Below are positions 1-40,393 of a stretch of 64,000 nt of DNA, piece by piece. The translations under genes and the position numbers were made by a program. Source of the stretch: Laccaria trichodermophora (taxonomy: Eukaryota; Basidiomycota; Agaricomycetes; Agaricales; Hydnangiaceae); NCBI GenBank assembly GCA_018417955.1, contig JACTVC010000031.1, positions 492,799 to 556,798 of the forward strand. Reading direction: 5' to 3'. Numbering within the stretch: the first letter of the stretch is position 1; every line of letters starts with the position of its first letter. Below the pieces are notes generated by a model. The model was not told the DNA's origin, ran no database searches, and saw only the letters and a program-made list of their open reading frames with translations.

Positions 1-1315
1 GAAGCTGGTGGATTTACTTGAAATGTGTCTTGAAATATTGGGCACATTCTGAATACATTTAATAATGGCTGGGCACATCAAAATCCAATATTGAATGAGC
101 TGCTGGGGAAATTTTGATGCACATTTTATGTTACAGGTGTTAAGTGTAACGGGTGGTTATTAGGCTTCGAGTTTGTTTGTTTGTTGGTCTGTTACGTTCC
201 CTTAATTCTACGAGACGACGTAGTCTTTCGCTATCACTTCGTTATGCCCTTAATAACGACAGTATAGGGTTCCGCAATGCTCTATGCCCAAAGGACTGTT
301 GTATAGAGATTCGGTATCTGTTCTTAAGTCGTATGCTGACAACGTTCTAATTCTTAAGTCTTCGATGTTGAAGACTTATTGGTTCAAGGTTTCAATAGAG
401 ACTCTAAGTCAAAAGACTATAGAGTTCAAGGGTGACTAAGATCTGAAGGTCTGATGTTGGGTTGAACTAAGCCTGTATTGCCTAGGTTCAAGCTACTGAA
501 CACAAACGAAAGCACCCTACTTATATACTATGACCATGAGTCAAGTACAAGTCAGAAGTATGAGTTTGTATGACTTGTATAGAGTCAGACGAATCATACT
601 GTGTCTATGTAAGTCTATATGAATCATATGAATCTATCTAAGTAAGTATGAATCATAGTAGAGAAATCTGACTGGGATGCGTGTCTAGAACTGTCCATTA
701 TGGTCTAGATACGTCTTAGGAATATGTAATTGTCTGCGCATGTTTATATGTATTGTAAAGAAAAGAGTTTGTAACATTTTACCAACAGTTCTCATGTAGT
801 CCCTTGTGCACATCCTAATTGCAGTTGATGTTCAATGTTGGGCATATTTTGAATTTACCCACCTGACAAATATGAAGTAAATTATTGAGCAATAATGCCT
901 CTGATCAACATATGCCTAGGATTTACTAATTGGACAAATCACTGTTTCACCCCTGTGTGAATGACAACATTTTTCTTGATGAAGTTCACAGAAATTTCAC
1001 ACACTTTGAGCTCCACTTAACCAAGCCCTGTCTGCAAAATACCTTGAGAAGTGCATATTGAGACTTGTACCTAGTTTATTTCTATGTACTCAATCTTGGG
1101 CTCCACCCAATATCCCTATCAATTAGTTACTTGTGTCCATGACCTAGTACTCATTCTTTCCTGATGGTTCTGCCTTTTTTTGATGAGTCTCATGGATGCA
1201 AGCCACAATAACAAAATCTTTATATGAAAAATAAGAAAGGAACAGCAAAAATACTCTAAATTCAGTGCTAAAGCATAGCTATTGGTCAAATTTTCTAATA
1301 CAAGTACAAAATGGT
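1..1315. other. AT-rich region without recognisable gene
   Basis: No coding segment is convincing here. The only sizeable open frame (153-350, +) has no recognisable motif. Around 530-720 the sequence is built from diverged copies of a short AAGTATGAATCAT/AGTCTATATGAATC-like word, so it is low-complexity. It lies 3' of the Rep-like gene. I looked for a capsid-like frame and for the geminiviral origin nonanucleotide TAATATTAC on both strands and saw neither. Confidence 0.5.
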
Positions 1316-2681
1316 TCAGAATGTGCTATCCCCTTCAACATACAGTTTGTGATCAAGATGAACAATCACAGAATTTGCCTGTAACCAATTCTGGTCCCAG
1401 CTAGAATAATTCATGGGATTGGAATTTGAAAGCCAGATGGCAGGCCCACCCCAAACCACCCTTCTTTTCTTGCAATATTTTTCATTGAGGGTGAACTCTC
1501 TTTGTGCCCCCAGCCAACACTTGTATTGAGGAAATGAGGCTGGGTCTATGTCATCCAGCACAATATAGGAAGCCTGATTTTCATCAAACTCAGATCCATT
1601 CATCTGGAAATTGTGGTAGGAATGAGGACCTGAAATAATGAGTATAATTGAGCAAATGAGGACAAAATGAATTTACCAAGGGATCTGGCCCATTCTGTCT
1701 TCCCAGTCCGACTTGGACCCCAAATAATCAAAGCCTTAGGCCTCTCAAGTTTTTTCATCTCATAGTTGGCCCAATCAGTGACTACCTGAGGCAGATGTGG
1801 AAAATGAGAATAGTTTGAGATATATCTTGGCTGGACTTTCTCATAACGATGAGCCATGTAGACACGGAGATTAGAAAAGTTGTTTGCATAGGCCTTGGGA
1901 TCAATTTCAGTGCACCTCATTGTGAAGTCCCCTGCTGTTTCTGCCTCAAGAATATATGTCCAGCCAGCTCTGGATGAAGTCAAGCCCTGTGCAACCACAT
2001 CAACAGGACCTGACCATGGGCCAAATCTCTCAGAAAATGGGTCCTTGTGGATATAATCCCAAGCCCGCTCAACATCACCTTGACGAGAAAGTCTGTGTTT
2101 TATTTGAGTAAAACAATCTGAAATTTTTAAAAAGAGTACATACAGTCGGATGTTGGGATGTAAGTGAAGGACATCAAAAATCCTTGATGCGGATCTGAAG
2201 CGGACATTGGGACTCTTTTCAAAAATGCAAATGATGTGCCAATGGAAGTGTCCATCTCCATGCATCTCCACCACTCCTGCCCACTGCACAGGTGGACGAG
2301 CCAGAGATTCAAGCATCATTTCAGCCTCAGAGACAGAAACATCTCCAACCTTAAGTCCAAAGTTAGTATATTCTCTGTACATTAATACAGCATGATTCTT
2401 ACCTGAGAGTAGGTCAATAAATACCTTGCTGCTTTGAGGCGAAAATTTGGTCCTGGTTCAGGTGTGAATGGTTTACCAGGGGGGCTCATAGCTGGAGCAG
2501 ACAAGGGTGGGATAGATCTTTGTCTGATGGAGTATGGAGTAGATTGCATAGATCTTTGTCTGATGGAGGATGGAGTAGATTGCCATCTGAAGGTTGTTGA
2601 AGGCTGAGAAGGAGTTCCCAGAGGTTGACTTTGAGGAGTAGAGTGATCAGGAGGTGGAAGTCTGAAGCGACCATAAGACAT
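1316..2681 (-). CDS. rep: Endogenous CRESS-DNA virus-type Rep (HUH endonuclease + SF3 helicase), intron-containing
   Basis: Replication initiator of the geminivirus/genomovirus lineage: the N-terminal HUH domain nicks and joins ssDNA, and the C-terminal domain is an SF3 helicase. Four exons fit: 2681-2403, 2349-2144, 2092-1677 and 1629-1316. The three introns (53, 51 and 47 bp) have GTAAGA/GTATGT/GTAAAT donors and AG acceptors, and the first carries a perfect TACTAAC branch point. The exons sum to 1215 nt, an uninterrupted frame of 404 codons. Motifs in order: motif I LLTYSQ at the end of exon 1; motif II HFHWH with a following geminivirus-Rep-sequence-like FDV...HPNI block; motif III YIHKD with the catalytic Tyr; Walker A GPSRTGKT; Walker B VLDDID; motif C WLSN. 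Every catalytic motif is present. The roughly 85-residue Pro/Ser-rich extension before motif I is unlike viral Reps, where motif I lies near the N terminus. A TATAAAAA box lies about 45 bp upstream. I infer an old integration kept as a host gene; no capsid gene is adjacent. Confidence 0.85.
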
Positions 2682-2724
2682 TTTGAGTGAGGAGATGATG
2701 AGAAGTACACAAGCAACACCACCC

Positions 2725-2732
2725 TTTTTATA
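2725..2732 (-). promoter_or_regulatory. TATA box of the Rep-like gene
   Basis: TATAAAAA on the minus strand, centred about 45-50 bp upstream of the ATG at 2681. Spacing and sequence match a core promoter, which suggests the Rep-like gene can be transcribed by the host. Confidence 0.5.
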
Positions 2733-2785
2733 CTGTTCTTTGGAGCATCATTTTTTCAAGGATAAGGATACCAACAAAACTTGAT

Positions 2786-3450
2786 CTACTTTATCAGAGA
2801 AAAGAGTTGAAATATATAAGGAGGTCCATAAGTTCCCACATAGTCCAAGCAGAAAGTTAAATTTCTGAACAATTCCAATGGAAGGCAATGGGCAGGAGAC
2901 TCAGTCATTTTGTTTTCCACTCCATTGGCATTGTTCAGAATGCGGGAGCCTCGTGGAACGGTTCCCAACGGCATCCGTCGGAGTGTGTGATTCCGCGGGA
3001 ACCCGCATGAGAAACTACATGGTAAAAATGGTGCACTCGGAGGAGCAGGAGTTGAAAACTCCGTTTCGCAGCCAATTACACCATTTGACATTTCAACAAT
3101 ACTGTCTACGGGTAAGTATTCGTCACTCAGACTCACGCTGTACTCATCATCCACCGCCTGCTTTGAAGTTTAATTATCTCTTTCAGCCAAATCTAAATGG
3201 CCGTTCGGTATTGGACGCTATGCGGAATATTTATGAGTTCTTCAAGAATGCACTCGGAAAGGGTAGATATCATTTACGTCAGCCAACACAAATTTTATGA
3301 TGAGCTAATCTTGCTTCGTCCTCACCGTCGCCTTCAATGATTTTCTTGGCGGCACGCCTTATCTCTTCATCCTGAACAGCTGCAACAGGCACCTTGAGGT
3401 GCCCCTCTAAACCAGGCTCGAGCTCACTAGCCATGTCCTTCGTTGGTATG
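2786..3450 (-). other. Possible unrecognised divergent gene (weak)
   Basis: Two minus-strand open segments (about 3279-3451 and 2786-3154) read as ordinary protein. The first begins at a CATG shared with the proposed ERT1 start and contains the charged stretch AAKKIIEGDGEDEARLAHHK. No motif is recognised, and I cannot find a clean splice joining the two segments. This may be a small multi-exon gene transcribed away from ERT1, or simply the promoter region between Rep and ERT1. Confidence 0.2.
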
Positions 3451-5036
3451 TGCTGGAACACCCACTGAGTTTTGAGTAGGCCCAGATCTTCTTTAGCAGA
3501 GGAAACGTCGGAAACAAGGCAACCCAGTAACGACGACGCTGGAAGGAAGAAGAAAACGGCGAAGAGAAAGAAGGTTAACCATGCATGTTTGTATTGTCGG
3601 CGTAGCCATATGACGTGTGACGATGGGAGACCATGTCAACGCTGGTGAGTCCAATGAAATTCGAGATTCAAAATCTGACGTCAACAGCATTAAGCGCGAG
3701 ATTGGCCACTTGTGCCACGATGAACATCGATCGCGACCTCCTGAAGCCCAACCTGCGACGACAGCAGCCTCTTCAAGCCAGGTGCGGACGTCCATGCCAG
3801 GTACCCACAGTTCACGTTTCCCCAAGGCTAGCATTGACAGCTACTCCAGTTACAGCGTATCAAGGTTCCCTACCACAAGCTACTTCCGCTTGGCCAATGG
3901 TCTTTCCCCAATCGTACCAGCCTCAGAACTTTGGCAACGAGTTTTCTGTCCTAACGCACGTTCCCGCTCTTTTTCTTCTGAATCTTTTCTCATACCCCCT
4001 CAGAGACTTTTTAGAAACACTCGACGACGGATTCTTTTTTACTCCCCCAACAACTGTTGCACCCGCCCTCATTTCAAATCCTTTCCCGACTCCGACGGAG
4101 GCAGCAGCAGCTCCTATAACGACCGAAGTCGCTGCTGCCGAGCCGCCACCCGTCCTTTTACCCGCTGACAAGACGGAAAAATTCCTTCTCACAGCTGCCG
4201 ATCAGGAATCGGGGTCCCGCGATGAACGGTTAAACCGCGTTATCAGGAGCAAGTACGAAGCGGGGTTACTGAAGCCGTACAACTACGTCAAAGGATACGC
4301 AAGATTGTCGCGCTGGATGGAGAACAACGTATCTCAGGAATCGAAACAGGCGATTTTGCAGCCGTTGTCGATTCTGCGGCCAAAGTTCCGAGTGAGCACG
4401 TTTGCATCGTTGAGCTATTCTGGGCTGATGGGTATAGGCTGTGGCGCAATCTTTGAGAGACCTCGACCTGGTATTCATTGAGGAGGCGTTTGAGCGCATG
4501 CTTCTCGACTACGATAGGGTGTTCCTTGCCATGGGGATTCCGGCCTGTCTGTGGAGAAGAACGGGGGAGATTTACAAAGGGAACAGAGCGTTTACTGAGC
4601 TCATTGGTTTGGATGGGCACTTGATGCGTGATGTACGTTTACTATCTGTCTACCCCCATCCATGACTTACTCGCACTCTAGGGAAGGTTATGCATTTACC
4701 AACTTATGGCCGAGGAGTCAGCAGTAAATTACTGGGAGGTCAGTCATTTCGCACATTGGAACTCGAACATTCTCACAATCGCTACAGAAATACGGCCACG
4801 TCGCATTCGACTCGAGCCAAAAAGCCGTTTTGACGTCGTGCGTACTCCGACACAAGCCACGGCTCCAGCTTGGCTCGTCAGCGACGTCGAAGAAAGACAA
4901 ATCGCTGGTGAAGGAAGAGAACGAGATCGGTACTCAGACTGAGGAAGGGTTTATCAACTGTTGCTTTTCGTTCACCATTCGTCGTGACGATTGGGGAATT
5001 CCGAGTATGATTGTGGGCAATTTTATCAGGTCGTGA
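3433..5036 (+). CDS. ERT1: Zn2Cys6 transcription factor, ERT1/AcuK type (gluconeogenesis regulator)
   Basis: Nuclear DNA-binding regulator of the ERT1/AcuK family, which controls gluconeogenic and respiratory genes. A basic KKKTAKRKK stretch is followed by the zinc cluster ACLYCRRSHMTCDDGRPCQ, then C-IKREIGHLC after a 43-bp intron (3645-3687); all six Cys are present. Downstream come the conserved SKYEAGLLKPYNYVKGYAR, the PAS-like LLDYDRVFLAMGIPACLWR, MAEESAVNYWE and the C-terminal NCCFSFTIRRDDWGIP. Introns: 3446-3499, 3645-3687, 3801 to 3840 or 3849, 3956-4003 (needs a GC donor), 4392-4437, 4633-4681, 4739-4787. The start at 3433 is inferred: exon 1 is only 13 nt, and its in-frame continuation hits a stop unless the 54-bp GTATGT...CAG intron is removed. 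The reading frame looks intact. Family identity is firm; the first two exons are less certain. Confidence 0.88.
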
Positions 5037-5239
5037 ACAGAAAATGAAGTATAGCTGTATGTAATATATTTTTTTCAGATTTTTTTGAGGTCGTCATGCC
5101 AGCGCCAAGACCTTCTGTGACGTCACGTCTTTTTTTAGCCACATCCCTCTGAACCAAGTCTCGTCCACCAAGGTTTCACAGCTCTCGTATTTAGAGGTAT
5201 GGCCTCCCTTTGAACGACAAACCTACCTGTCTCATCCCC

Positions 5240-6363
5240 ATGTCGGTGGTCTGGCTCTCAGTTTTATTGATATCCACCTTGGGTTTATTCTTTGGCCTGT
5301 TCTTTGGGCTAAATTATCCGGGTACGCGTCTAATCCGCTGAATCTAATGCACCTGCTTAACGATCCACATTCAGAAATACTAGACCATGAGTGGCCCGCG
5401 ACAACATGCAGCCTCGTGAACGCCGAAATCCCATCTCGCTACTGCTGCGAGGCATCACAATGCAATCAGCTATGCATCAACGCGGAATCTGGACTGCCGA
5501 AATGCAATACGATCATATCCCGACTGAACGAAAACTACGATCCACTTGCCTGCGCTGCTGATAGTGGACAGTGTCCGCCGACGGGGAGTACATGCGATGG
5601 AGGGTAAGTGTGTGCTTGAAACACGAAGCATGATCACCGTTCAAAGTTGGCGCAGGGTAGATAATTGCAACAGCTGTTGCTCGATATGTGAAGCCTGCAC
5701 GACTACGTGAGTATTTATGACCCTTTCGACCTTACCGCCTGCTTACTGATTTAAAAAGGTGTTCTGGAGATCCGCAGACATGTACATCGTCTTGTACCAC
5801 TTACCCGTACGATTTCTATATTCTTCTCCTTCCAAACGCTAAAAATAACATACATATTATTTATAGATGCGCCTGTCAGTGGGGTTGCGACAACTCATAT
5901 CACAGCAACTGCATCATATCATGCCCAAACTGCTACTCTGTCGTGCTTGCCTACGCTTATCGAACAATGAGCGGTAGCCTCGAGATCGTAACCCAATCAA
6001 AAGATTTTGAACAAAATAAGGATAAAGCGGGAACGTTCCTCAACGACCATCAGTTGAATACTACGTCTCCCTGCCGTTATAATCCGGACAATTTATCTCA
6101 GGCGCGTTTTACATTTTCGCTGATGTCAGACACACCCCTGACGCCTTTTCATTCAGATCGACTTCGAAATATCATATACGAGATGGAAATGGGCTATCAC
6201 CTCCGTTTTCGGAATAATCCCTCTGGCAATCGTTTTGCTCGTTTGTATTTTCTCTTACATTCGCTACAGGAAAAATCGCCCCAGTCGGCGGGAGATACTT
6301 CACATGGAGCCTCTTCCGGCTACTTCGGTTCAGCACAAAAATGACGGCCGTATTGGAGTCTGA
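5240..6363 (+). CDS. Cys-rich membrane protein with two TM segments (basidiomycete family)
   Basis: Begins with a hydrophobic segment (VLLISTLGLFFGLFFGL), then a long extracellular-type Cys-rich part: SRYCCEASQCNQLC, CPPTGSTCDGG, NCNSCCSICEAC and CNCIISCPNC-like pairs. A second TM helix (SVFGIIPLAIVLLVCIFSYI) ends in a short basic tail. This resembles a widespread mushroom family of unknown function with the same YNP...WKWAITxxFGIIP ending. At least five exons are needed. The last intron (6102-6156) must start with GC to join NLSQ to IDFEISYTRWKWAI in frame; its branch point CTGAC and CAG acceptor are good. No function can be assigned beyond a cell-surface location. Confidence 0.72.
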
Positions 6364-19957: not shown

Positions 19958-21931
19958 ATGGCTTCGGACACTGATATCCCAGGAATTGACCAGCCCCTCT
20001 CCTATGAACCAGAACGTAGTAGACTCCTTCCAAACCTCCTGCTCGATGACGACAGAGATTCTGATCGCAGCATCTTGAACGACGAACCGTCAACCAACCA
20101 ATTACCGCTCACCACGCTTCGCGAATTCACGATGTTGTACATCATGAACGCCGTTACCGATAAGCCAGATTGGAACACCAAGGTTCGCGTCATTTCAATT
20201 TCGTGCAGCCATGAATTGTGTATCAGTGTGTCACTTTCAGATTTTTGATGACGCGATAAGGTCGAGATGGAAGGCTGAGGCGTTAGCTATGCCTGGGAGG
20301 GATGTCACTGAGAGCATGGCTGAATGGTGTATGGAGGAATTGGAGTACAAGGCTACGCGCTTTGGCGGGATGCCAGGTGGCGCGATCAAGGTGTTCAATG
20401 GCGACGTGGTCAAATCGGACACCGCCGTTCCGCACTCAGTTAAAGCTAAGCTGCAAGCTGCTGTGAAGCCCCTTGAAGATGTCCCTTCATGGGAGAAGGA
20501 CTGGCATCCCGGATCGGACGAGAAAGTCCTCGATTTGGTTCACCCGAGTTTATTTCCTGTTGTTTATGGGCGGACAAGGGCTCTTGGGAAGGGAAAGGGG
20601 TTCGCGACGTTGAAGAACTGCATCACAAGGTGCGGCGAGGGCGGTGTGTTGGAAGAGCAAGACGTTTCGGACATGGATGATAGGTATAGCGCGGAATACC
20701 AGTGGTTACCTTGCGAAGTGGGCATTTCCCGAGGCGACGGGCGAGTCAGGTAAAATCCTGTTGAGAGGATTGCATCCTCTGACAATAATTTAACAGAATC
20801 ACAAGCTACATTAACAACCTACACCCAGCGAAGCATAGGCACCTCTATTGCATTATCGAAGAAATTATCACTGCCTCGATTCCCCTTTGGAACATCACCC
20901 TCGCCCCCCTCGCCCCCCTCTGGTACGACCAACACCAGCCTCAATACATCGACTGCTACGATACCATCCCACAAGACGGACGTGATGTTATCTTCCGGAT
21001 TCCTTATTACGAGGTGGAGTACGATCCCGACCCAGAAAACGCCCCAGAAACAGAAGGTCCACAACGTCTCGAATGCGAGGATGATCCATCCTACTGGGAT
21101 AGGAGGCAACAATGGATCGAAACAACGAGAAAGGTCGTGCTGCCAGAGCCCAAGAACTTTTGGCCGCTTGAGGAGCCCCCTCTTTTTAATTTGAGGAAGA
21201 AATTTTCGAAGCGCGGCTTGCAGGTAATTGTCAAGCTGGCGAATATTGAACTAACGCCGGAGAAACCTTTATATAATGGAGGAACGTGGCATGTTGAAGG
21301 TCAACTCGTGGGTTTATTCTTATCATTTATTTTTCACGATGTTCAATGTTTTCAGAACGAACATATTTGCGCCACAGCGCTCTATTACTACTCTTCAACC
21401 AATATTACTCCCTCGTCTCTCGTATTCCGGCAACACACGGGTGGTTTCATGCATGGTCGGATTGTCTCCCGCCGAGACCAACACGACTGGCTCCCTGAGG
21501 TATTCGGGTGCTTTCAGGACGGATCAACGTTTCAAAATGTCGGGGGTGTCGATACGCGCGAAGGCTGCCTGTTGACGTCCCCCAATATCCTGCAGCACCA
21601 GGTTCAGCCGTTTGAGCTCGTGGATCGGACAAAACCAGGGCACAGAAAGATTCTTGCGCTTTTCTTGGTGGATCCGAATATCAAGATTATCAGTCCCGCG
21701 AATGTGCCGTGTCAGAGGAAGGATTGGTGGCGAAAGGAGATTGGGCCTGGGTTTGGGGCGTTACTTCCGAGGGAAGTGAGTGATATTGTGTTTGAGGGAG
21801 TGGATGAGTTCCCGATTGGCTTGGAAGAGGCGAAGGAAATGAGGCTTGAGCTTATGGAAGAGAGGAAAGCTTTTGCTTTGGATTTGGTTGCGGGACTCGA
21901 GGAAGAGAGATTTTCCCTTTGTGAGCATTGA
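19958..21931 (+). CDS. DUF4246 family protein, copy 2
   Basis: Same family and block order as copy 1: QLPLTTLREFTMLYIMNAVT, MAEWCMEELEYKATRF, GDVVKSDTAVPHSVKAKL, DLVHPSLFPVVYGR, YINNLHPAKHRHLYCIIEE, EYDPDPENAPETEGPQRLE, KLANIELTPEKPLYNGGTWH, NEHICATALYYYSSTNITPS, PNILQHQVQPFELVDRTKPG, HRKILALFLVDPNIKIISPA and the terminal FSLCEH. Introns near 20183-20232, 20751-20795 and 21309-21356 are short GT-AG. The long open frame is intact and the start MASDTDIPGIDQPLSYEPE is shared with the decayed copy 3. Putative HxE...H ligands as in copy 1, function inferred only as oxygenase-like. Clearly closer to copy 3 than to copy 1. Confidence 0.87.
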
Positions 21932-35778: not shown

Positions 35779-37682
35779 TCAATGCTCACAAAGGGAGAAT
35801 ATTTCTTCCTCGAGCTCCTCAACCAAATCCAATGCAAAAGCTTTCATCTCTTCCATAAGCTCAAGCCTCATTTCCTTCGCCTCTTCCAAGCCAATCGGGA
35901 ACTCATCCACTCCCTCAAACACAATATCCCTCACTTCCCTCGGAAGTAACGCCCCAAACCCAGACCCAATCTCTCCCGCCACCAATCCTTCCTCTGACAC
36001 GGCACATTCGCGGAACCGATGATCTTGATATTCGGATCCACCAAGAATAGCGCCAGAATCTTTCTGGGCCTTGTTTTGTCCGATTCACGAGCTCAAACGG
36101 CTGAACCTGGTGCTGCAGGATATTGGGGAACGTCAACAAGCGGCCTTCGCGCGTATCGACACCCCCGACATTTTGGAACCTTGATCCGCACTGGTTGCAC
36201 CCGAATACCTCAGGGAGCCAGTCGTGTTGGTGTTGGCGGGAGTCAATCCGGCCGTATATCAAACCGTTGGTGTGTTGCCGAAATGCGAGAGATGAGGGGG
36301 TGATGTTGGTTGAAGAGTAGTAATAGAGCGCTGTGGCGCAAATATGTTCGTTCTGAGAACGTTGAACACCGTGAAAAATAAATGATACGAAGACACGCAC
36401 GATTTGACCTTCAACATGCCACGTTCCGACACTGTACTCAGGTTTTTCCGGCGTTAGTTCGATGTTCGCCAGCTTCACGATTATCTGCAAGCCGCCCTTG
36501 GGAAATTGCTTCCTCAGATCAAAATACGGGGGCCCCTCAAGCGGCCGAAAGTTCTGAGGCTCTGGCAACACGACCTTCCTCGTAGTTTGGATCCAGTGTT
36601 GCCTCCTATCCCAGTAGGATTGCGATCGAGGCGTTGTGGGCCTTCAGTAATTGGGGCGTTTTCTGGATCAGGGTCATACACCACCTCGTAGTAAGGAATG
36701 CGGAAGATAACATCGCGTCCGTCTCGTGGGATGAGATCGTAATCGTCGATGTTTTGAAGCTGGTGTTCATCGTACCAGAGGTGGGCGAGGGGGGCGAGGG
36801 GGAATTGAGGCAGTGATGATTTCTTCGATAATGCTATAGATGTGCCGATGCTTCGCTGGGTGTAGATTGTTGATGTAGCTTGAGATTCTGTATAAGTATT
36901 GTCAGAGGATGCAATCTTCTCAACAGGATCTTACCTGGCTCGCCCGTCGTCTCCGAATATGTCCACTTCGCAAGGTAACCACTGGTAATCCGCACTGTAC
37001 CTATCATCCGAAACCTCTTGCTCTTCCAATACATCGCCCTCGCCGCACCTTGCGATGCAGTTCTCCAACGTCGCAAACCCCTGTCCGCCCTTAAACAACG
37101 GGAAATAAACTCGGGTGAACCAAATCGCGGACTTTCTCGTCCGAGCCAGGATGCCAGTCTTTCTCCCATGAGGGAACATCTTCAAGGGGCTTCACAGCAG
37201 CTTGCATCTTAGCTTTGATTGAGTGCGGCACGGCGGTGTCCGACTTGACCACGTCGCCATTGAACACCTTGATCGCGCCACCTGGCATCCGGCCGAAGCG
37301 CGTAGCCTTGTACTTCAATTCCTCCATGCACCATTCAGCCATACTCTCAGTGACATCCCTCCCCGGCACAGCTAACGCCTCAGTCTTCCATCTCGACCTT
37401 ATCGCGTCATCGAAGACAGTGACACACTGATACACAACCCATGGTTGCACGAAACTGAGATGACGGGAACCTTTGTGTTCCAATCTGGCTTATCGGTAAC
37501 GGCGTTCATGATGTGCAACATCGTGAACTCGCAAAGCGTGGTGAGCAGTAATTGGTTGGTTGACGGTTCGTCGCTCAGGACCCTGCGCTCATCATCAAGC
37601 AAGAGGTTTGGAAGGAGTTTGCTATCTCTGGCTCGTAGGAAAGGGGCTGGTCGATTCCTGGGATATCGGTGTCCGAAGCCAT
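35779..37682 (-). pseudogene. DUF4246 copy 3, decayed duplicate of copy 2
   Basis: Very similar to copy 2 over its whole length, from the start (37682) to FSLCEH (35779) and about 90 bp beyond. It is broken at several points: a 1-nt deletion shortly after the 19th codon shifts the frame; near 37095 VYGRTRALG is replaced by a stop with an 18-20 nt deletion; about 14 nt coding LWNIT are missing near 36805; and another 1-nt deletion lies in the GHRK region near 36072. Intron positions match those of copy 2. It lies in inverted orientation, 16 kb from copy 2. Not functional as a full-length DUF4246 protein. Confidence 0.88.
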
Positions 37683-37808: not shown

Positions 37809-37890
37809 TCGGGTATGGTGTAACGGTTAACATTGCCGCCTCTCATATTTCAGCCACGCGGCAGCTCGGGGTTCGATTCCCCGTACCCGA
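37809..37890 (+). tRNA. tRNA-Glu(CTC) with an 11-bp intron
   Basis: 7-bp acceptor stem TCGGGTA/TACCCGA; anticodon stem GCCGC/GCGGC; anticodon CTC in loop CTCTCA; intron of about 11 nt (TATTTCAGCCA) at the canonical position one base 3' of the anticodon; T-arm CGGGG-TTCGATT-CCCCG. A TTTTT run for Pol III termination follows at 37895. CCA is not encoded, as usual for eukaryotes. Confidence 0.9.
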
Positions 37891-38415
37891 ACTCTTTTTG
37901 GAATGGGTCTTTCTTTGAAACGGGCCCCTTATTTCGATAACTAAACATATACATCTTTTGTCACATAGTAAGTGTTTGTGCCAAGCTCCCAATGTATGTA
38001 TGTCGTCTCGCTGTAAGTAACGGCTGTCAATGCATTCCGAAGTTCGCGCTGAACATTGAACAGACCTATGTCAATGTGTTCAATATCTCATTCACCCTTG
38101 ATTCCACGCGAACGTGGGCGGCCATATGCATCAAGATTCCGCAAAATTGCTCAGTGTGGGTTGGCACTCCTCTGAGCTCAGCTGCTCAGGTTGGAATTTT
38201 CGACTTCCCCATCACGACCACCCTGGACTGACGTCTATTTTTATAACACATTCCCAAGCAAACACCCCTCGTGGGATCGCTCTTCTGCTTCTTTTCTCTG
38301 AAATTTGAAACGTGCGTATCGGCGGACCACATGCTCGTCGAACGAGCGCTTCACTCATCCATCGCATATAACTGGCATAATAATTCCTGCTCCAACTTGC
38401 CATTGAAATATTGAA
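37891..38415. other. Intergenic between tRNA-Glu and the phosphatase pseudogene
   Basis: Contains the Pol III terminator and the presumed promoter of the phosphatase locus. A short frame (37992-38231, +) shows no recognisable motif. Confidence 0.4.
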
Positions 38416-38819: not shown

Positions 38820-40393
38820 CATCAGGAAAAACAGGAAGTGGAAATTGTAGGTAATAACATGATATTTCCTTCGATTTCCTTGAATTTCCTTGAATTTCCT
38901 ATTTCCTCAAATTTCCTTTTTTTGAGCACCCTCTTTAGAAATCCTCAGGAAATTTTAGGAAATCGGAGGTAATAACAGGTGGCCTTTCTGCCAATTTCTC
39001 TTGTTTCCATTGAAAAATCCTGATCAGAAGCATTTAAAAAGACAAGTATTGATTGTGTATAAGTACTCTATCATACATCAAAAGTAATGACGGTGGGTCT
39101 ATCAAATTTACGGAATCAGAGTAAGTAATGAAGTTACTAATGAGCCTGTTCTTCCAGGAGGGAAGAAGACTGTTCGTCAACGAGGAAGGGAGGACACCAT
39201 TTGTCAAGGGAGAGAACCGTTGCTCAAGGGAGGGAGGACACCATTTGTCGACAACAGAGGGAGGACGCTGTTTGTCGACAAGGAAGGGTGGGAAGAGAGC
39301 CGTTTGGAGGGAGAATGCTGTTCTTCAAGGAGGCCGTCCTTCAAAGAGGGAGCCACTCATCGAAGGGGGGAAGATGCTGTTCTTCAGCGTTCTTCAAGGG
39401 AGCCAACAGAGGGAAGCCGCCGTTCGTTGACAAGGGAGGGAGAGTGCCATTTGTCGATGAGGGAGGGAGAGCGCCGTTCGTCAACAAGGGAGAGCGCTGT
39501 TCATCGACAAAGGAGGGAGAACACTGTTCTTCAGGGAAAGAGGGAAGGACGTTCATCGACGAGGGAGGGAGCCGTTCACAGGGAGGACGCTGTTCTTCAA
39601 GGGAGCATTTCTTCAGGGCAGGAGAACACCGTTTACCGTTTTTCAAAAAAGGAAGGGTGCCATTCGTCAACAAGGGAGCGAGGAGAACGTTCGTCAAGAG
39701 AGGGACGCTGTTCGTCGATGGAGGGAGGAAGCCATTCATCGAGGGACACCGTTCGTCGGGAGACACCGTTCGTTGAGGGATGCTGTTCGTCGATGGAGGA
39801 ACGCCGTCCACCGAGGAGGGAGAAAGAGCGCCGTTCGTCAAAGGGGATGCCACGTTTGTCGAGGGACACCGTTCGTCGAGAGACACCGTTCGTCGAGAGA
39901 CACCGTTCATCGAGGGAGGGACGCCGTCCACCGAGAAGGGAGAAAGAACGCCGTTCGTCAAAGGAGGGGACGCCGTTCGTCAACGAGGGAGGGAGGAGAA
40001 CAAAAGGCAGAGTGGGACGATGTGGGGGGAAGGAAGAACCATAAATTTCCGCGTTGGGAAATCAACATAATCACATGATGTCGGAGTTTCAATGGACTTC
40101 AACGAATTCGCGGCTCGCGACTTGTAGCTGTTCACTCGCCTGTCGCTGTTCTTTCATAGAAAGCGTGGCATTTAAGGTGGGCATACAAAGTTGTAGGTGG
40201 CACAACGTAATCAGGCAAATAGAAATCACATATTGGAAATCAACAAAAAAGTACTACAATTTCCAGGTCTTCTGAGAAATTTGCTGCTGTTACCCGAAAT
40301 TTCCTGGCCATTTCCACAATTTCCTGAGATTTTCTGTTTTTTGGAAATTGGCAGGAAATCGAGAGAGATTTCCAAATCCCGTTTTTCCTGATG
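38820..40393. mobile_element. 1574-bp TIR transposon in the phosphatase gene, GGGG target duplication
   Basis: Ends CATCAGGAAAAAC (38820) and GTTTTTCCTGATG (40393) are perfect inverse complements of 13 bp, and the similarity continues imperfectly inward. GGGG flanks both sides (38816-38819, 40394-40397). Removing the element plus one GGGG restores the frame VGG-EYFGMDN, which fixes the insertion site. Subterminal regions on both sides carry many GGAAATT/AATTTCC words. The core is a GA-rich minisatellite. No transposase is encoded, so the element is non-autonomous. The family cannot be named from a 4-bp duplication alone. Confidence 0.9.
39160..40010. repeat. GA-rich minisatellite core of the 1574-bp element
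   Basis: Tandem, imperfect short units around CGCCGTTCGTC(A/G)A and GGGAGGGA, repeated dozens of times. Stop codons are rare, so several frames on both strands stay open for 190-274 codons. The translated strings are purely repetitive (PFV-KG, SST-EGG) and I do not regard them as proteins. Confidence 0.8.

Follow-up and report, generated by a model that had tools for sequence, protein, structure and literature searches.

A geminivirus/genomovirus-type Rep gene in the mushroom Laccaria trichodermophora and its place among the Reps of Agaricomycetes

The Genomoviridae are viruses with a circular genome of ~2.2 kb, a capsid gene, and a stem-loop origin. Their replication protein, Rep, combines an HUH domain with a superfamily 3 (SF3) helicase, and the same architecture is found in a gene that lies within a 64,000-nucleotide stretch of the Laccaria trichodermophora genome (assembly GCA_018417955.1, contig JACTVC010000031.1, positions 492,799 to 556,798 of the forward strand), referred to here as the window. 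The window Rep differs from the Reps of the Genomoviridae in being chromosomal, in its long N-terminal tail, in having introns 1 and 2, and in falling outside the Genomoviridae-named rows of the phylogenetic trees described below.

Endogenous fungal Reps are known mostly as scattered sequences. In Tuber melanosporum, 42 Rep genes or remnants have been described, all but one of them in a single clade, along with a reconstructed geminivirus-like element that has 37-bp terminal repeats (PMC3198968). The Tuber transposon resembles the window gene in being a case of a chromosomal Rep in an ectomycorrhizal fungus; unlike the window Rep, it is present in ~40 closely similar copies with terminal repeats and transposase open reading frames (PMC3198968). 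The same work (Liu 2011) counted five Rep-like sequences in Laccaria bicolor, found a place close to SsHADV-1 for the fungal Reps, and suggested that some endogenous Reps were co-opted (PMC3198968). A 2017 paper describes Reps of Serpula, Pisolithus tinctorius, and L. bicolor that find each other first (PMC5618006). Among viruses, Botrytis cinerea ssDNA virus 1 is reported to have a spliced genomovirus Rep with a 381-nt intron, which by the lengths given in that report sits closer to the start of its gene than intron 3 does in the window Rep (PMC8262958). The window gene itself is therefore another case of the known endogenous fungal Reps, already reported in L. bicolor. What may be new is that the related Reps of other mushrooms belong to a single family whose branching follows the orders of their hosts; among the matches listed, no earlier report was found of an order-wide Agaricomycete Rep clade with a shared tail and C-terminal motif.

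The favored reading, which as a whole is given a probability of about 0.5, is that of a virus-derived chromosomal Rep that is long resident, inherited within its lineage, and probably active, and whose most likely use would be to block single-stranded DNA (ssDNA) elements. The gene occupies positions 2681-1316 on the minus strand of the window, and its four exons join into 1215 nt, or 404 codons and a stop (Table 1). Motif I, the HUH motif, a GRS-like stretch, motif III, Walker A, Walker B, and motif C occur in order. The HUH part has its motif I, its HUH motif, and a single catalytic tyrosine accompanied by a lysine in motif III, and the SF3 part has Walker A, Walker B, and motif C; the GRS-like stretch lies at 2146-2205 in exon 2. 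A sequence-only reading had described this as an intact geminivirus/genomovirus-type Rep gene in a fungal contig, with three introns of 47-53 nt (one with TACTAAC), a 404-codon spliced frame, and a TATA box. That description holds: motifs are complete, catalytic residues are present, the coordinates and their sum agree, and a TATA-like TATAAAAAG is found at 2732-2724. Gemini_AL1_M (PF08283) matches exon 3 alone with E=3.8e-14 and 53.1 bits against a Pfam cut-off of 24, and because this match is above the cut-off the gene represents more than a chance resemblance. The exon 2 piece gives a Gemini_AL1 match below the cut-off (E 0.0038, 17.7 bits, cut-off 24), and exons 1 and 4 searched singly against Pfam gave no match. 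A PDB sequence search returned weak matches only (E 0.22 and up), the best E in a PHROGs search was 0.013, and a fold search with the L. bicolor counterpart was informative for the helicase part alone.

The relatives of the gene were collected in three protein searches that returned 7, 325 (of which the best 120 were used), and 50 matches, giving 141 distinct proteins. Placement of the window gene in the trees was made through the L. bicolor protein (P0002, 94.5% identical) as a stand-in for the window exons. A tree of 118 rows, made from 121 proteins after P0005, P0014, and P0114 were dropped, contains one Agaricomycete clade of 21 rows with support of 99. A second tree of 60 rows was selected from the 141 proteins (15 fungal, 15 environmental, and 30 others taken as viral) and again contains one Agaricomycete clade, this time of 24 rows with support of 100/98. 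This clade comprises all 14 Agaricomycete rows and 10 environmental rows. Among the matches listed, neither tree has a virus-named row within the clade. The Tuber brumale Rep falls outside the 24-row clade. Reps from Serpula, Pisolithus, Suillus, Russula, Lactarius, Lactifluus, Amanita, Flammula, Trametes, and Cerrena share with the window Rep both this one supported clade and the catalytic motifs, with the Amanita and Serpula proteins at 36-49% identity per exon. Three proteins were first assigned to the clade by the author, and a later analysis placed two of them, P0005 and P0137, within it; the third, P0014, agrees with the Serpula protein P0010 at 380 of 406 residues. A joint clade of the window lineage with Genomoviridae-named Reps, which are separate in the tree, is nevertheless not rejected (p=0.425).

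Within the clade, the hosts' orders are largely reflected in the branching. Support is 99/99 for Russulales, 91/79 for Boletales, and 92/80 for Agaricales. The two Polyporales rows do not resolve in the tree, and a joint clade of these with P0075 is not rejected (p=0.33). Placed on the 14 Agaricomycete rows, the host-order labels need three changes, the minimum for four orders, compared with a mean of 7.74 for shuffled labels. Host orders were checked for five species and are presumed for the others. The members also share traits of the protein. Where a start and a recognized motif I are both present, which is so for 11 clade proteins, the N-terminal extension measures 34-135 amino acids, against a median of 11 in the others (n=68), although long N termini also occur outside the clade (34-39 amino acids in four proteins and 56-156 in four more: P0141, P0138, P0027 of Tuber, and P0096). 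Serine, threonine, and proline make up 29-44% of the extension in nine of the 11 clade proteins and 19-21% in two, and the window Rep has the long S/T/P-rich extension typical of the clade. At the C terminus, a Y[LM][EAG]D motif is found in 13/27 clade proteins and 0/114 others among the proteins listed; the pattern was set post hoc, and the 27 include the author-assigned P0005, P0014, and P0137. Across 19 aligned clade rows, those catalytic columns that were examined are conserved wherever a letter is present, save for one Walker A Thr-to-Ser change. Because the clade follows host orders, and because a long N-terminal extension is typical of its members and a C-terminal motif is found in about half of them, old residence is favored.

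The two Serpula lacrymans proteins, S7.9 P0010 and S7.3 P0014, differ at 26/406 aligned residues, and by the author's count 21 of the 26 differences fit a single C-to-T/G-to-A step (R to Q, D to N, S to L, P to L, and similar changes). The pattern resembles decay of one copy through cytosine mutation.

The closest counterpart is LACBIDRAFT_333195 of L. bicolor S238N-H82, which is identical to the window Rep at 359/380 residues (86/93 in exon 1, 45/46 of the exon 2 residues kept by the L. bicolor model, 130/138 in exon 3, and 98/103 in exon 4). It shares introns 2 and 3 and the N-terminal extension, and it differs in that its model is shorter at intron 1. The L. bicolor protein is without precisely the residues of introns 2 and 3, and at intron 1 the model drops 22 further residues, as if the CAG at 2284 were used. 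This leaves 11 residues between motif I and the HUH motif. The same interval spans 33-36 residues in 12 further members of the clade and 32-42 in the 55 proteins measured outside it. The 53-nt form of intron 1 is favored because the spacing then fits the relatives, even with an uncommon AAG acceptor. Intron 2 is in frame and free of stops, and therefore the DNA alone does not force splicing there; only the comparison shows the intron. All three predicted introns are presumably spliced.

Further relatives occur in the same genome, which with the window gene included has a minimum of three Rep loci that are unlike one another and of which two are partial or broken; these search counts are lower bounds. 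A broken relative on contig C17 (~829569-829850), which contains internal stops, keeps intron 1 together with the end of exon 1, and its exon 2 has a deletion that removes the HUH histidines. On contig C13, positions 324471-324955 carry an exon 1 open over 134 codons, the 5' flank before it, and the initial bases of intron 1. Homology stops just inside that intron, so that the frame is open without the remaining gene, and the flank is shared with the window gene, the TATA-like box being altered in C13. Silent divergence from the two relatives is 0.233 and 0.228, and intron 1 differs from that of C17 at 12/53 sites. Exon 3 found no second match in this genome, and searches with PF08283 and with the Amanita protein found the window gene alone. 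An exon 4 match on C21 (E 0.68, 30%, containing a stop) was taken as chance.

Several observations weigh against the favored reading, beginning with those that concern selection. The sequence-only reading had argued for long residence under selection and for a domesticated nuclease/helicase, and had suggested comparing nonsynonymous with synonymous change (dN/dS) among related fungi. The ratio was obtained against the broken relatives on C13 and C17 only. It is 1.04 for exon 1 against C13 (83 codons) and 0.69 for exon 2 against C17 (28 codons); both values mix the broken lineage with the window lineage and cover a probably disordered tail and a short stretch, and they neither exclude nor show selection on the remaining gene. 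Identity to the environmental protein P0001 is 158/206 (76.7%) in exons 2-3 and 30/43 (69.8%) in introns (p=0.34), and because splice signals inflate the intron figure, weak purifying selection is possible. The dN/dS values and the lack of a difference between exons and introns would suit a neutral relic, i.e., one old integration that was duplicated and is decaying, with the window copy open by luck, as would the fact that, of the three genomic loci detected, two are partial or broken. Such a relic is nonetheless improbable. In simulations limited to substitutions, a 404-codon frame survives ~0.115 neutral changes per site with a probability of ~0.002, and with indels at an assumed rate it survives in 0/20,000 runs; the simulations take ~0.115 as half the paralog distance and assume that the relatives arose by chromosomal duplication. 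The gene is also intact, with catalytic residues, in two species. For long residence under selection, the survival of the frame and the ~0.23 changes per silent site from the relatives speak in favor, and the dN/dS values and the P0001 comparison speak against. Domestication as a nuclease/helicase is a more tentative proposal, in view of these ratios and of the sparse distribution, the non-monophyly of Russula, and the intron 3 position described below. The gene has probably been retained.

The introns and the protein motifs add to these adverse points. The 233-amino-acid protein P0136 comes from a virus-sized contig of 2,226 bases and clusters with rows named Genomoviridae (95/91). At the intron 3 site it appears to read into an intron, and P0135 ends at or beside the same site. 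In these Genomoviridae-related proteins the apparent intron would lie at or next to the Walker A end, as does intron 3 of the window gene. Because P0136 seems to be spliced at the same site on a virus-sized contig, intron 3 may be of viral origin. Read-through peptides suggest splicing at this site in P0001, P0005, and the Pisolithus-like P0022 as well; P0001 reads through introns 2 and 3 and, in part, intron 1. The Russula-like P0137, judged by eye, runs straight through the positions of introns 1 and 2 and seems to have an intron elsewhere; because it shows neither, these two introns may have arisen after the clade did. Outside the clade, no extra residues occur at the intron 1 site in 55/55 measurable proteins or at the intron 2 site in 77/77, a count that truncated proteins of viruses spliced at these sites could escape through the search length limits. 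The earlier claim that three host-style introns mark long residence is accordingly weakened. The family-wide intron comparison rests on proteins. A viral contig collection, apparently poor in Reps of this kind and unable to serve as a DNA-level test of viral introns, gave no confirmed locus with P0002 and P0136 as queries, five weak helicase loci at 26-28% with the query A2, and 0 matches to a Walker A DNA pattern. As for the motifs, many Agaricomycete Reps carry the YLED-like tail and Laccaria is without it (it is not in P0002), so the motif is not necessary for clade membership. P0075, a clade protein not among the 19 aligned rows, has DE for DD in Walker B.

P0135 and P0136 are both Reps on contigs of ~2.2 kb, and each protein stops at the Walker A arm or immediately beyond it, like a RepA read into an intron.

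A different history that would account for much of this is repeated capture, in which unseen basidiomycete circular Rep-encoding ssDNA (CRESS) viruses diverged with their hosts and were copied into them repeatedly, the copies being short-lived and the window copy young and functionless. Sparse distribution fits such a history, since the 2017 paper gives such Reps for three basidiomycetes and none for 45 others, i.e., 3/48 (PMC5618006). Lactifluus nests within Russula, and monophyly of Russula is rejected (p=0.02, in a test chosen post hoc). The two dN/dS values, the intron 3 position common to a virus-sized contig, the presence of decayed copies here, and the existence of a second Serpula form that differs slightly from the first point the same way. 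What repeated capture does not readily explain is the absence of virus-named proteins from the clade, among those listed, and the order-level congruence with hosts. Environmental members are also mostly on contigs of 3.7-11.7 kb (7/10), with two on short contigs (P0006, 2,100; P0016, 1,537) and one for which no contig is given. In addition, the window gene shares its 5' flank and exon 1 with C13 and its intron 1 with C17. On balance repeated capture is somewhat unlikely, while being a serious alternative.

The genomic setting bears on two further explanations. The gene lies ~494 kb into a contig of 556,798 bases, of which the window is the last 64 kb, in an assembly of 59.0 Mb and 77 contigs. 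On the plus strand its neighbor is an ERT1/acuK-family PAS domain gene, followed by frames with peroxidase family 2 domains. Contamination of the assembly by a virus or another organism, for which nothing was found in favor, is a negligible prospect with the gene inside a 557-kb contig near such genes, with relatives on two further contigs, and with the L. bicolor counterpart on a 423-kb contig; the sequence-only reading had also thought it unlikely. A Rep belonging to a chromosomal transposon like that of T. melanosporum has the precedent of the 42 Tuber genes or remnants and the 37-bp terminal repeats (PMC3198968), and repeats occur on both sides of the window gene. It is very unlikely all the same, as at least three unlike loci, two of them partial, are spread over 59 Mb, no repeats of >=16 nt frame the gene within window positions 1-6000, and the flanking repeats occur elsewhere in places where no Rep was found beside them. 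Treating the Rep gene as part of the flanking repeats was rejected; they stop at ~958 and elsewhere stand alone.

Under the favored reading of a long-resident, inherited Rep, the gene would have been captured long ago by a fungal ancestor from a circular ssDNA virus related to geminiviruses and genomoviruses, or from a close viral cousin. Its lineage, which among the proteins listed comes from Agaricomycete genomes and environmental sequences alone, would have been transmitted mainly by descent, with duplication, decay, and loss. Once expressed, the product would probably be an active nuclear protein. Its HUH domain would nick a DNA hairpin or origin and stay joined through the motif III tyrosine, the SF3 ATPase would assemble as a ring and unwind DNA, and the N-terminal tail, not found in most viral Reps examined, might tie the protein to host control. 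The most likely use, we infer, would be to bind the origins of incoming related ssDNA elements, or to mix into their Rep rings, and so block replication. A bolder version is more tentative and rather doubtful. It proposes a single capture before the split of Agaricales, Boletales, Russulales, and Polyporales, giving rise to a domesticated rolling-circle initiator. This protein would have gained an N-terminal tail subject to regulation and a docking motif at the C terminus, and scattered lineages would have retained it as a working nuclear nuclease-helicase, perhaps as an antiviral decoy.

Table 1. Predicted features of the window Rep gene, in window coordinates
Feature	Position	Strand	Details
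TATA box-like TATAAAAAG	2724-2732	-	~43 nt upstream of ATG (2681)
Rep exon 1	2681-2403	-	279 nt, 93 codons; S/T/P-rich N-terminal extension, motif I at end
Motif I LLTYSQ	2403-2420	-	end of exon 1
Intron 1	2402-2350	-	53 nt, GTAAGA..AAG, branch TACTAAC 2368-2362
Rep exon 2	2349-2144	-	206 nt; HUH motif II and GRS-like stretch
HUH motif II HFHWH	2236-2250	-	exon 2
GRS-like stretch	2146-2205	-	exon 2
Intron 2	2143-2093	-	51 nt, GTATGT..CAG, open in frame
Rep exon 3	2092-1677	-	416 nt; motif III, central domain, Walker A
Motif III with catalytic Tyr, YIHKD	2041-2055	-	exon 3
Walker A GPSRTGKT	1696-1719	-	exon 3
Intron 3	1676-1630	-	47 nt, GTAAAT..CAG, directly after ARSLG
Rep exon 4	1629-1316	-	314 nt, TGA at end; Walker B and motif C
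Walker B YIVLDDID	1544-1567	-	exon 4
Motif C IWLSN	1424-1438	-	exon 4

Other features of the window were recorded alongside the gene. Upstream of it, an inverted repeat at 2863-2940 has 20-nt arms and a 38-nt spacer, with a diverged relative at C1:1934117-1934192; Rep searches of the genome gave no match at C1, where this relative lies, and for that reason the idea of a viral origin in the repeat was set aside. Window positions 1-958 consist of nested repeats that occur at many other places in the genome. The pieces 1-128 and 774-958 adjoin each other at several other loci, and here an element of ~650 bases (129-776) is inserted between them, with an overlap of ~8 bases that looks like a target-site duplication. 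Farther along are a DUF4246 frame at 20789-21928 (E=3.1e-97), with a similar-looking shorter frame on the other strand ~14 kb away (35915-36643), and a tRNA gene at 37809-37891, which alone in the window reached Rfam's gathering threshold. An open frame of 317 codons at 39091-40044 is repetitive and rich in Arg, Ser, and Glu, and its coding nature is doubtful.

Vertical descent of the clade would mean that a viral replication initiator has been retained as a host gene across several orders, a case open to testing in a mushroom that can be cultured. Should descent not be vertical, the tree instead predicts that many ssDNA viruses of mushrooms, as yet unseen, form a group tracking the host orders. 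Either outcome would be informative, and public fungal genomes should contain the sequences that decide between them.
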